Assembly: GCA_017857395.1 (NCBI GenBank) | Contig: JAFMDF010000001.1 | Coordinates: forward strand, 60,361 to 124,360 | Direction: 5' to 3' | DNA from: Bacteroidota bacterium | GTDB lineage: Bacteria > Bacteroidota > Bacteroidia > Chitinophagales > Saprospiraceae | Length of the DNA stretch: 64,000 nt | Part shown: positions 22,128 through 23,613 of the stretch, piece after piece | Numbering within the stretch: the stretch's first letter is position 1 | Layout: each line of letters opens with the position of its first letter | The notes under the pieces: generated by a model | Seen by the model: only the letters and a program-made list of their open reading frames with translations | Told to the model about the DNA's origin: nothing | Database searches by the model: none | Position numbers and translations under genes: made by a program

Positions 22128-22691
22128 ATGGAAGAAGAGTTAGAAATGTCCATAGAAATAGCTCAAGAATCAATGAGTGGTGCAATTGAGCGATTGAAAA
22201 GAGAATTACAAAGAGTCAGCACAGGAAAAGCATCTCCAGCAATGGTAAATGACCTTTTAGTTAATTACTACGGAAGCCCTACTCCGTTAAACCAAGTAGC
22301 AAATGTTTCCAAGTCAGATTCACGAACTTTAGCTATACAACCTTGGGAGAAAGCGATGTTAGGTCCAATAGAGAAAGCTATTTTTGAGGCGAACTTAGGT
22401 GTCACGCCAATGAATGATGGGGAATTAATTAGATTGATGATTCCACCATTAACTGAAGAACGTAGAATACAATTAGGAAAAAAGGCTAAAGCTGTTGGTG
22501 AAGAAGCAAAAGTAAGTGTGCGGAATGCTCGTAGAGATGCCATGGAAGCAGTGAAAAAAGCTGTGAAAAATGGTTATCCAGAAGATGCTGGCAAGAAAGA
22601 AGAGATTAACATACAAGACATGACGAATAACTTTAGCAAAAAAGTAGATGCTTTAATTGCGGCTAAAGAAAAAGATATTATGACGGTTTAA
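22128..22691 (+). CDS. frr: Ribosome recycling factor
   Basis: A 187-residue RRF that, with EF-G, splits the post-termination ribosome. The family blocks RELQRVSTGKASPAMVNDLLV, YYGSPTPLNQVANVS, AIQPWEKAMLGPIEKAI and the C-terminal helix-rich VRNARRDAMEAVKK are all present. Length is normal. The usual partner pyrH is not immediately upstream; instead there is the PIN-like gene. It ends in a strong terminator. Confidence 0.97.
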   Translation: MEEELEMSIEIAQESMSGAIERLKRELQRVSTGKASPAMVNDLLVNYYGSPTPLNQVANVSKSDSRTLAIQPWEKAMLGPIEKAIFEANLGVTPMNDGELIRLMIPPLTEERRIQLGKKAKAVGEEAKVSVRNARRDAMEAVKKAVKNGYPEDAGKKEEINIQDMTNNFSKKVDALIAAKEKDIMTV

Positions 22692-22712: not shown

Positions 22713-22760
22713 AAAAAGAAGCCTTATTCGTTCTTAATAGAACGAATAAGGCTTCTTTTT
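22713..22760 (+). terminator. Intrinsic terminator after frr
   Basis: Perfect 21-bp arms (22713-22733 and 22740-22760) with a 6-nt loop, ending in five T residues. It starts 21 bp after the frr stop. Confidence 0.95.
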
Positions 22761-22955: not shown

Positions 22956-22987
22956 TTTGCACCTAACATTAGATTCTATTAATTTTG
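22956..22987 (+). promoter_or_regulatory. Promoter of the tRNA-like RNA array
   Basis: TTTG at 22956-22959, a 20-base spacer and TAATTTTG at 22980-22987 match the Bacteroidota housekeeping promoter (TTTG, then TAnnTTTG). Transcription would begin near 22994, about 30 nt before the first tRNA-like unit. It is the best promoter I found in the window. Confidence 0.75.
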
Positions 22988-23023
22988 TGTCATCAATAGA
23001 ACATAAAGTTGTTCTTTCAATAA

Positions 23024-23144
23024 TGTGAGGTGATGAAACTAGGCAGCCATGCCCTCCTGTCTCGGGGGTGAAGATAAGAAATAAACATTCCGACTTGTTG
23101 GAATGGCTAATCGCTTCGTGAAGGTTCGAATCCTTCTCTCACAG
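23024..23144 (+). ncRNA. tRNA-like RNA, copy 1 (121 nt)
   Basis: The fold is drawn by hand. The acceptor stem TGTGAGG (23024-23030) pairs with TCTCACA (23137-23143), followed by G and an encoded CCA (23145-23147). The D arm has a 3-bp stem ATG/CAT with a leucine-type loop containing GG. An anticodon-like arm CCCTC/GGGGG holds a 7-base loop CTGTCTC, which would read GUC after U33. The T arm is GAAGG, TTCGAAT, CCTTC. The 51-nt extra arm begins with GAAGAT (23070-23075), which pairs with ATC and CTTC (23110-23117) around one bulged G. Inside are a purine-rich strand, a CATTCC/GGAATG hairpin and GCTA. It is unlike any normal class II tRNA. Confidence 0.7.
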
Positions 23145-23250
23145 CCACTTTTCTTTTGAGTAAGAAAAAATAAAGTTTGACAAATTTTTTAGTATTAAAA
23201 ATGAGGTTAAAATCCTATTAATCCTAAATAATTCTGTCAGCTTGTAATAT

Positions 23251-23371
23251 TGTAAGGTGATGAAATTTGGCAGCCATGCCCTCCTGTCTCGAGGGTGGAG
23301 ATAAGAAATAAACGTTCCGACTTGTCGGGATGGCTAATCGCTCTTTGGAGGTTCGAGTCCTTCTCTTACAG
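23251..23371 (+). ncRNA. tRNA-like RNA, copy 2 (121 nt)
   Basis: Same fold and same length as copy 1. Base changes compensate: acceptor TGTAAGG/TCTTACA (G-C to A-U), anticodon-like stem CCCTC/GAGGG (U-G to U-A), extra-arm base GGAGAT/ATC..CTCT (A-U to G-C, and G-C to G-U), and hairpin CGTTCC/GGGATG. The anticodon-like loop CTGTCTC is unchanged. The T loop is TTCGAGT. CCA is not encoded (GCAA follows), so the tail would have to be added by an enzyme. Confidence 0.7.
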
Positions 23372-23389
23372 CAATTTTTATAAAAGACT

Positions 23390-23431
23390 GACAAGCTTAA
23401 ATTTTTTCGATTTTTATAAGTTAAGCTTGTC
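23390..23431 (+). repeat. Perfect 11-bp hairpin between tRNA-like copies 2 and 3
   Basis: GACAAGCTTAA (23390-23400) pairs with TTAAGCTTGTC (23421-23431). It ends ten bases before copy 3 and lacks a T tract, so it may be a processing or stability element rather than a terminator. Confidence 0.55.
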
Positions 23432-23440
23432 CCTCAATCT

Positions 23441-23581
23441 TGTGAGGTGATGAAACTGGCAGCCATGCCCTCCTGTCTCGGGGGTGAAGGTAAGGGATAA
23501 ACGTAGTATATTGGGTGGACCACAATCTTTTCTTGTACTATAGCTAACCGCTTCGTGGAGGTTCGAATCCTTCTCTCACAG
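23441..23581 (+). ncRNA. tRNA-like RNA, copy 3 (141 nt, enlarged extra arm)
   Basis: The acceptor, D, anticodon-like and T arms match copy 1. The extra arm is 72 nt. Its base pairs GAAGGT (23486-23491) with ACC and CTTC (23547-23554), a GAT/ATC to GGT/ACC double change relative to copies 1 and 2. The tip hairpin is replaced by TAGTA/TACTA enclosing a second ATTGGG/CCACAAT hairpin. The flanking internal-loop strands AAGGGATAAA and GCTA are kept. CCA is not encoded. A terminator begins six bases downstream. Confidence 0.7.
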
Positions 23582-23586
23582 CAAAC

Positions 23587-23613
23587 AAAAGCTCCATTCT
23601 TGGGGCTTTTTTT
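23587..23613 (+). terminator. Intrinsic terminator after the tRNA-like array
   Basis: AAAAGCTCC (23587-23595) pairs with GGGGCTTTT (23602-23610), one G-U pair, 6-nt loop, followed by further T residues. It closes the transcript begun at the promoter near 22956. Confidence 0.85.

Follow-up and report, generated by a model that had tools for sequence, protein, structure and literature searches.

The 64,000-nucleotide stretch of Bacteroidota DNA analyzed here, called the window in the following, contains an array of three tandem tRNA-like units flanked by frr (22128-22691) and manA (ORF end 24994). The units belong to an RNA family that is new to Rfam and to annotation. Judged by its bases, one RNA combines the aspartate identity set with the mark of a GatCAB substrate. 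These marks, together with a near-constant co-occurrence with gatB, suggest that the RNAs are likely carriers for the conversion of aspartate to asparagine away from the ribosome. We therefore propose, with a probability of about 0.5, that these tRNA-Leu-shaped RNAs, nearly all of them giant-armed, are dedicated off-ribosome carriers for tRNA-dependent asparagine synthesis via aspartyl-tRNA synthetase (AspRS) and then GatCAB. More tentatively, the family may be an RNA class that left translation and became a platform for the GatCAB conversion of aspartate to asparagine under an asparagine-sensing regulator, carried by phages and with some copies seemingly self-pairing.

The three copies were scored with R1, a covariance model under which members reach about 65 to 160 bits and ordinary tRNAs lie at or below about 60 bits. 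The features of the locus are:

22957..22987, forward strand: Bacteroidetes-type promoter, TTG (22957-22959), 20 nt, TAATTTTG (22980-22987), read from the sequence
23024..23144, forward strand: tRNA-like RNA copy 1, T1 to G73, 121 nt, R1 135.6 bits; CCA encoded at 23145-23147
23057..23063, forward strand: anticodon-like loop of copy 1, CTGTCTC (host tRNA-Asp: CTGTCAC), from the sequence
23069..23119, forward strand: giant extra arm of copy 1, 51 nt, internal loop AUAAAC / GGCUAA, from alignment and sequence
23251..23371, forward strand: tRNA-like RNA copy 2, T1 to G73, 121 nt, R1 127.2 bits
23284..23290, forward strand: anticodon-like loop of copy 2, CTGTCTC, from the sequence
23296..23346, forward strand: giant extra arm of copy 2, 51 nt, from the sequence
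23441..23581, forward strand: tRNA-like RNA copy 3, T1 to G73, 141 nt, long-arm type, R1 160.2 bits
23473..23479, forward strand: anticodon-like loop of copy 3, CTGTCTC, from the sequence
23485..23556, forward strand: giant extra arm of copy 3, 72 nt, from the sequence
23513..23523, forward strand: hairpin motif GGGUGGACCAC of the long-arm type in copy 3, UNGA loop and bulged A, pairing drawn by eye
23590..23613, forward strand: putative intrinsic terminator AGCTCC-ATTCTT-GGGGCT, then T's, after copy 3, read from the sequence

The three homologous units lie where an earlier sequence-only reading had placed them, with the lengths (121, 121 and 141 nt) and extra arms (51-72 nt) given there. A cloverleaf can be drawn for each unit: the acceptor stem has 7 bp (TGTGAGG/TCTCACA; TGTAAGG/TCTTACA in copy 2) and is followed by the discriminator G73, the D stem has 3 bp, the anticodon stem has 5 bp and closes the 7-nt loop CUGUCUC, and the T arm is normal, with a TTCGA loop. 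CCA is encoded in copy 1 only. The changes between copies that had been described as paired are indeed two-sided in the acceptor and the extra arm; the one claimed for the anticodon-like stem is actually one-sided (U-G to U-A). The loop CTGTCTC is constant within the window, as had been stated, but not in relatives, where position 34 can be T, C or A, position 33 C or G and position 37 C or G. The array had also been credited with a textbook promoter and terminator: TTG-N20-TAATTTTG upstream of the array matches the Bacteroidetes promoter consensus, and the terminator at 23590-23613 is legible, but it is absent from the output of a simple terminator scan. A strong hairpin with T/A tails (22714-22760) follows frr and is probably the frr terminator.

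ARAGORN found no tRNA in the window and no tmRNA at the three units, no family of Rfam 15 covers them at gathering score, and none of the 45 RF00005 matches in the genome corresponds to one of them. A relaxed Rfam search (E up to 10) gave 33 matches, none at gathering score; 21 of them lie on the hairpin after frr, which gives sub-threshold matches to microRNA and sau-5971 models. In listings of open-licence PMC papers, none was recognizable as an account of the RNA family. Since neither Rfam nor ARAGORN assigns any of the three units and covarying relatives exist, the earlier proposal of a new tRNA-like regulatory or enzyme-substrate RNA gains support.

Single-sequence folding of the three copies was no better than chance (z -0.96, -0.38 and 0.53), and the structural evidence is thus comparative. 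An alignment of 22 units including the three of the window supports a cloverleaf with a three-part extra arm, in agreement with the canonical tRNA layout (7-bp acceptor, D, 5-bp anticodon and 5-bp T arms). Among its pair cells 97.8% are standard pairs and two-sided changes occur at 16 pairs; none of 500 shuffles reaches 97.8% or 16. The covariation score is 0.379; shuffled alignments give 0.173 and slid registers about 0.1. Two-sided changes are found in the acceptor, D, T and extra-arm helices, and the anticodon stem shows one-sided changes only. The different anticodon register given by unconstrained RNAalifold was rejected because it fails at one pair in 5 of the 22 sequences; the tRNA register pairs in 22/22. 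Across 281 unique members, U-G, U-A, C-G and G-C all occur at pair 30-40 (G-C in 3/281), and 30 of these members have a U.U at 29-41.

The extra arm varies from 31 to 149 nt across members, and the motif GGTNGACCA is present in 104/215 bacterial and 58/66 viral unique members. One relative of 76 nt (L061), called tRNA-Asp(atc) by ARAGORN, lacks the giant arm and keeps U1-A72, G73 and a loop CTATCTC; the constant part is therefore the core and not the arm. In viral extra arms, perfect palindromes that differ in sequence lie 3' of the UNGA hairpin (e.g. L188, L197, L208 and L214). A palindrome of at least 8 nt occurs in 43/58 viral arms (shuffled mean 6, maximum 9) and more weakly in bacterial ones (19/104, shuffled maximum 17). 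The viral arms thus look as if self-pairing or dimerization were conserved.

A covariance model run against Bacteroidota, a check of the kind that had been suggested, showed that relatives are widespread and that the homologues covary. The own genome contains three copies only, besides chance or tRNA matches. DNA similarity search matched 39 of 60 genomes, own genome included, with many weaker matches that were short or in spacers. R1 identified carriers in 33/61 genomes of the family and 68/395 genomes of the class to which the window belongs, own genome included in both, and in a phylum sample of 247 genomes all R1 matches above 65 bits lay within the class. R2, a core-only model that handles long arms badly and does not recover the copies of the window at its own threshold, yielded the arm-less L061 and nothing outside the class among 148 phylum genomes. 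A bacterial pattern scan gave at least 119 loci, with an R1 match in all 119; named carriers include Chitinophaga, Niabella, Pedobacter, Sphingobacterium, Dyadobacter, Spirosoma, Hymenobacter, Cyclobacterium, Algoriphagus, Echinicola, Neolewinella and Portibacter. The covariance model finds relatives in Saprospiraceae genomes. A plasmid search gave no match to the RNA. The 391 R1 matches yielded 314 parsed and 281 unique members; the remainder comprises 60 matches under 100 nt, regarded as ordinary tRNAs, and 17 that did not fit the D-arm pattern, including the likely members L089:6564 and L159:3441 and one truncated member. Truncated or divergent members (e.g. L159:3441, 56 bits) and the arm-less L061 (62 bits) fall below the usual R1 range.

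Because members from the pattern scan carry a fixed-sequence bias, unbiased base counts were taken from 77 pattern-free members (84 matches found by DNA similarity or R1, minus duplicates and one truncated match). U1, G2, U35, C36, C38, C71, A72 and G73 are invariant (77/77 each), position 34 is G in 72, and at position 37 there are 73 members with U, two with C, two with G and none with A. A purine at 37 is thus found in 2/77 members, compared with 426 of 430 ARAGORN tRNAs from the examined loci, which upholds the earlier view that an elongator role is unlikely. U33 is absent in 30 of the 281 unique members and U, C or A stands at position 34 in 12. In two loci of the genus of the window (L011 and L012) array copies 1 and 2 read CTTTCTC (anticodon UUC) and copy 3 keeps GUC. 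The tRNA-Asp of the host has the loop CTGTCAC and G73, so that the loop of the RNA differs from it by A37 to U37 alone.

According to PMC9976931, strong aspartate determinants are G73, G34, U35, C36 and C38; these are present in 77, 72, 77, 77 and 77 of the 77 members, respectively. The same paper also lists G10 among the bacterial Asp identity elements and describes G1-C72 as strict in bacterial tRNA-Asp, where it helps to place the 3' end in AspRS. G10 was found in 9/77 members, and G1-C72 is replaced by U1-A72 in 77/77. For amidation of Asp-tRNA, U1-A72 is given there as determinant and G1-C72 and U20a as antideterminants, so that all 77 members carry the GatCAB-substrate pair. The base after GGC, which bears on U20a, is A in the parsed members, which were chosen for GGCAG and whose D loop was numbered by eye. 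The tRNA-Asn genes found by ARAGORN in the examined loci have G1-C72 in 11/11 cases (nine viral, one from another bacterium and one from the host), a count to which bacteria contribute those two genes only. Members conserve A and A at leader positions -4 and -2 and C at position 74, bases that are common in ordinary phage tRNAs too, where the comparison of C74 assumes that the tRNA ends reported by ARAGORN include base 74; we infer that this fits ordinary tRNA maturation. In its D arm the RNA is similar to Bacteroidota tRNA-Leu, and ordinary tRNA-Leu genes are the best-scoring non-members under R1 in the loci checked.

The presence of GatCAB was scored by gatB alone. In the class sample, gatB is present in 68/68 RNA-positive genomes; overall, 294/395 genomes pass the gatB cut-off (own genome included), and 226 class genomes have gatB and no RNA. 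In the family of the window (61 genomes), gatB was found in 31/33 carriers versus 5/28 non-carriers (Fisher P 7.6e-10), and the two carriers without gatB are assemblies that are 89% and 74% complete. Independent pairs of carriers and non-carriers were concordant with gatB in 12 of 15 cases, reversed in none and tied in three (sign test 0.0005), on a single-gene GlnRS tree of 57 of the 61 family genomes. RNA and gatB take 15 steps each on this tree; the shuffled mean for the RNA is 19, and clustering is weak. Taken together, aspartate determinants, GatCAB determinant and gatB co-occurrence give specific support to the enzyme-substrate branch of the earlier proposal. Features that go beyond that first reading are the body resembling tRNA-Leu, the loop that deviates from that of tRNA-Asp at a single base, the occurrence in phages and the AsnC-like neighbor.

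GlnRS was found in 61/61 family genomes (57 over the cut-off), so these genomes should not require GatCAB to make Gln-tRNA. AsnA (4/33 carriers, 5/28 non-carriers) and AsnB over the cut-off (22/33 carriers, 18/28 non-carriers) showed no association with the RNA, and neither enzyme was over the cut-off in 9/33 carriers and 8/28 non-carriers. That AsnA and AsnB fail to track the RNA counts against a simple reading as the only route to asparagine. PMC4206432 reports that AspRS and GatCAB of B. bacteriovorus allow an E. coli Asn auxotroph to grow, and regards GatCAB as possibly vestigial in some bacteria. It also describes genera, some of them Bacteroidetes, that have AsnRS, GlnRS and GatCAB, lack Asn synthetase and contain tRNA-Asn with U1-A72; on this evidence tRNA-Asn could be a GatCAB substrate in some carriers.

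Among 148 bacterial loci with at least 700 nt of upstream sequence, a divergent AsnC/Lrp-family gene is the first gene upstream in 89, mostly at a distance of 120-245 nt. Two AsnC-like examples that were scanned have NCBIfam AsnC as best match, with 161 and 157 bits (cut-off 227; next best 68 and 64). The AsnC-like gene is non-adjacent in the examined Saprospiraceae loci, including those of the genus of the window, and in the Cyclobacterium/Algoriphagus loci. The promoter type TTG-N18-22-TAnnTT(T/C)G precedes 75/158 bacterial copies or arrays, where mononucleotide shuffling gives a mean of 1.4 and a maximum of 5, and only 2/77 viral ones. Other neighbors of the bacterial RNA loci vary (sufB, an acyl-CoA synthetase-like gene, trmB, rluD). 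Up to 12 loci have a trmB-type gene downstream in the same orientation (L039, L068, L150, L185 and others, several of them Chitinophaga); that of L039 matches Pfam Methyltransf_4.

Viral copies were found in IMG/VR, where the pattern occurs in at least 120 stretches, some of them from near-duplicate contigs; R1 was applied to 80 of these and matched in 80/80, with 66 to 143 bits. The RNA lies less than 200 nt from an ordinary tRNA in 37/80 viral loci, on the same strand every time, and within 10 nt in 20 loci, with tRNA-Ser as the neighbor in 11 of those. In 29 viral loci there was no ordinary tRNA within the stretch examined. In bacteria, by contrast, a tRNA gene was present in 3/50 scanned loci, always over 3 kb away from the RNA. 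Several phages carry large tRNA sets and a tmRNA near the RNA. A search of annotated phages gave three records, one of them informative: LR756504.1, an unannotated record of an uncultured phage of 636 kb, which was matched by BLAST alone, with 75% identity over 99% of copy 3.

The RNA shares parts with several known systems. With the tRNA-Asn of the ND-AspRS and GatCAB pathway (T. thermophilus, D. radiodurans, B. bacteriovorus) it has U1-A72 and G73 in common, and charging with Asp followed by amidation would be expected for both. That tRNA-Asn has the anticodon GUU and decodes, whereas the RNA combines an Asp-type loop and, in 75/77 members, a pyrimidine at 37 with a Leu-like body and a giant arm. 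The loop CTGTC.C, G73 and G2-C71 are common to the RNA and tRNA-Asp, which differs in G1-C72 and A37 from the U1-A72, U37 and class II body of the RNA. Bacteroidota tRNA-Leu has a nearly identical D arm (host GGTGAAATTGGTAGACA versus GATGAAATTGGCAGACA in several members) and the same class II layout, but A73; the RNA has G73 (77/77), the Asp-type loop and an arm of 31-149 nt. The staphylococcal cell-wall tRNA-Gly and other non-proteinogenic tRNAs are charged tRNA paralogues that are kept out of elongation. They differ from the RNA in amino acid, enzymes, structure and distribution, and are not known from phages. The tRNA-like ends are also found in tmRNA and tRNA-Sec, the latter being long-armed as well. 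A tmRNA was rejected because ARAGORN finds none at the units, and thus no tag reading frame, and a separate tmRNA is encoded in some of the same phages; tRNA-Sec was rejected because its UCA anticodon is absent from the RNA, with U35 and C36 in 77/77.

The same identity marks and the gatB link would also be expected if the RNA stayed uncharged and acted as a scaffold or regulator bound to AspRS, to GatCAB or to the two together, in a transamidosome-like particle or as an inhibitor; the giant arm would then be its functional part. The large arms with their conserved internal loop and UNGA hairpin motif would suit such a role, and the self-complementary phage arms (palindromes in 43/58) suggest assembly. 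However, a pure scaffold would not need an acceptor end, G73 and C74 conserved as in ordinary tRNAs, and L061 is a member without any giant arm; we consider this explanation unlikely. The link to gatB could also be indirect, if lifestyle or ancestry is shared by both genes and the RNA does something else, or if GatCAB acts on ordinary tRNA-Asn. The 226 class genomes with gatB and no RNA, a tree built on one gene and the U1-A72 tRNA-Asn reported for some Bacteroidetes in PMC4206432 are in favor of this. The 12 concordant and 0 reversed independent pairs, the invariance in the RNA of U1-A72, the GatCAB mark given in PMC9976931, and the G1-C72 of the tRNA-Asn genes found argue against it and make an indirect link quite unlikely.

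The Leu-like D arm, the long arm, G73 as a mark of serine too, and tRNA-Ser as the nearest tRNA at a coordinate distance of 5 in 11/80 viral loci would fit a class II tRNA that carries serine or leucine and acts as a donor outside translation. Yet the bacterial identity table in PMC9976931 lists A73 for Leu and C72 for Ser, against the invariant G73 and A72 (77/77), and neither amino acid explains the invariant U35, C36 and C38 or gatB, so that such a donor is improbable. Least probable of all is a role in translation, in which the RNA would read GAN codons and insert an amino acid at them, for instance under stress or for phage proteins. The anticodon would be GUC, in some members UUC or CUC, and the proximity to ordinary tRNAs on the same strand in 37/80 viral loci would be in line with it; the pyrimidine at 37 in 75/77 members, the base other than U at 33 in 30/281 and the fact that the host and several of the same phages have an ordinary tRNA-Asp speak against it.

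In the proposed role as a carrier for asparagine synthesis, a tRNA-Leu-like paralogue would have gained the AspRS marks and the GatCAB mark. Its transcript is predicted to be processed at the 5' end by RNase P and completed with CCA as in ordinary tRNAs. Aspartyl-tRNA synthetase would load it with aspartate, GatCAB would turn the RNA-bound aspartate into asparagine, and the asparagine would then be released or used. The pyrimidine at 37 and the giant arm would bar the RNA from decoding, so that the Asn-loaded RNA would spare aspartate codons. The AsnC-like, presumably asparagine-responsive regulator would set the level of the RNA, and phages, as a guess, might supply their own copy for the same function. 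The main doubts about asparagine synthesis on this RNA are the absence of G1-C72, G10 in 9/77 members only and the accommodation of a giant-armed class II body by AspRS. U1-A72 may weaken the charging of the RNA by AspRS, and for a class II body on this enzyme we know of no precedent.

The pathway of tRNA-dependent asparagine synthesis is known, but to our knowledge no dedicated non-decoding RNA has been described for it. If the proposal is true, GatCAB gains a non-translational RNA substrate in bacteria that seemingly do not need it for translation, which would explain why it is kept in bacteria that already have GlnRS and a G1-C72 tRNA-Asn. It would also be a case of a tRNA given over entirely to metabolism, and annotation would gain a conserved RNA family, carried by phages, that it has so far missed. 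Even with the chemistry wrong, there remains a covarying RNA family new to Rfam that tracks gatB in one bacterial family and is present in many phages.

The viral contigs also contain a second tRNA-like family, with near-constant halves AGTCAGGTGGCGAAA... and CAGGTTCGAATCCTGTCCTGACTA around different inserts. By pattern it has 12 copies, seven of them in one contig and all outside the window; copies are located at L208:5130-8251, L217:9980-10112, L220:4332-4445, L254:4500-4609, L263:11179-11262 and L284:1311-1403. The assembly of the window itself carries a dense array of divergent tRNAs at G000:C313:28000-29400 (L317, L342), one of which is called tRNA-Stop (anticodon UUA) by ARAGORN; this contig is probably phage or prophage.
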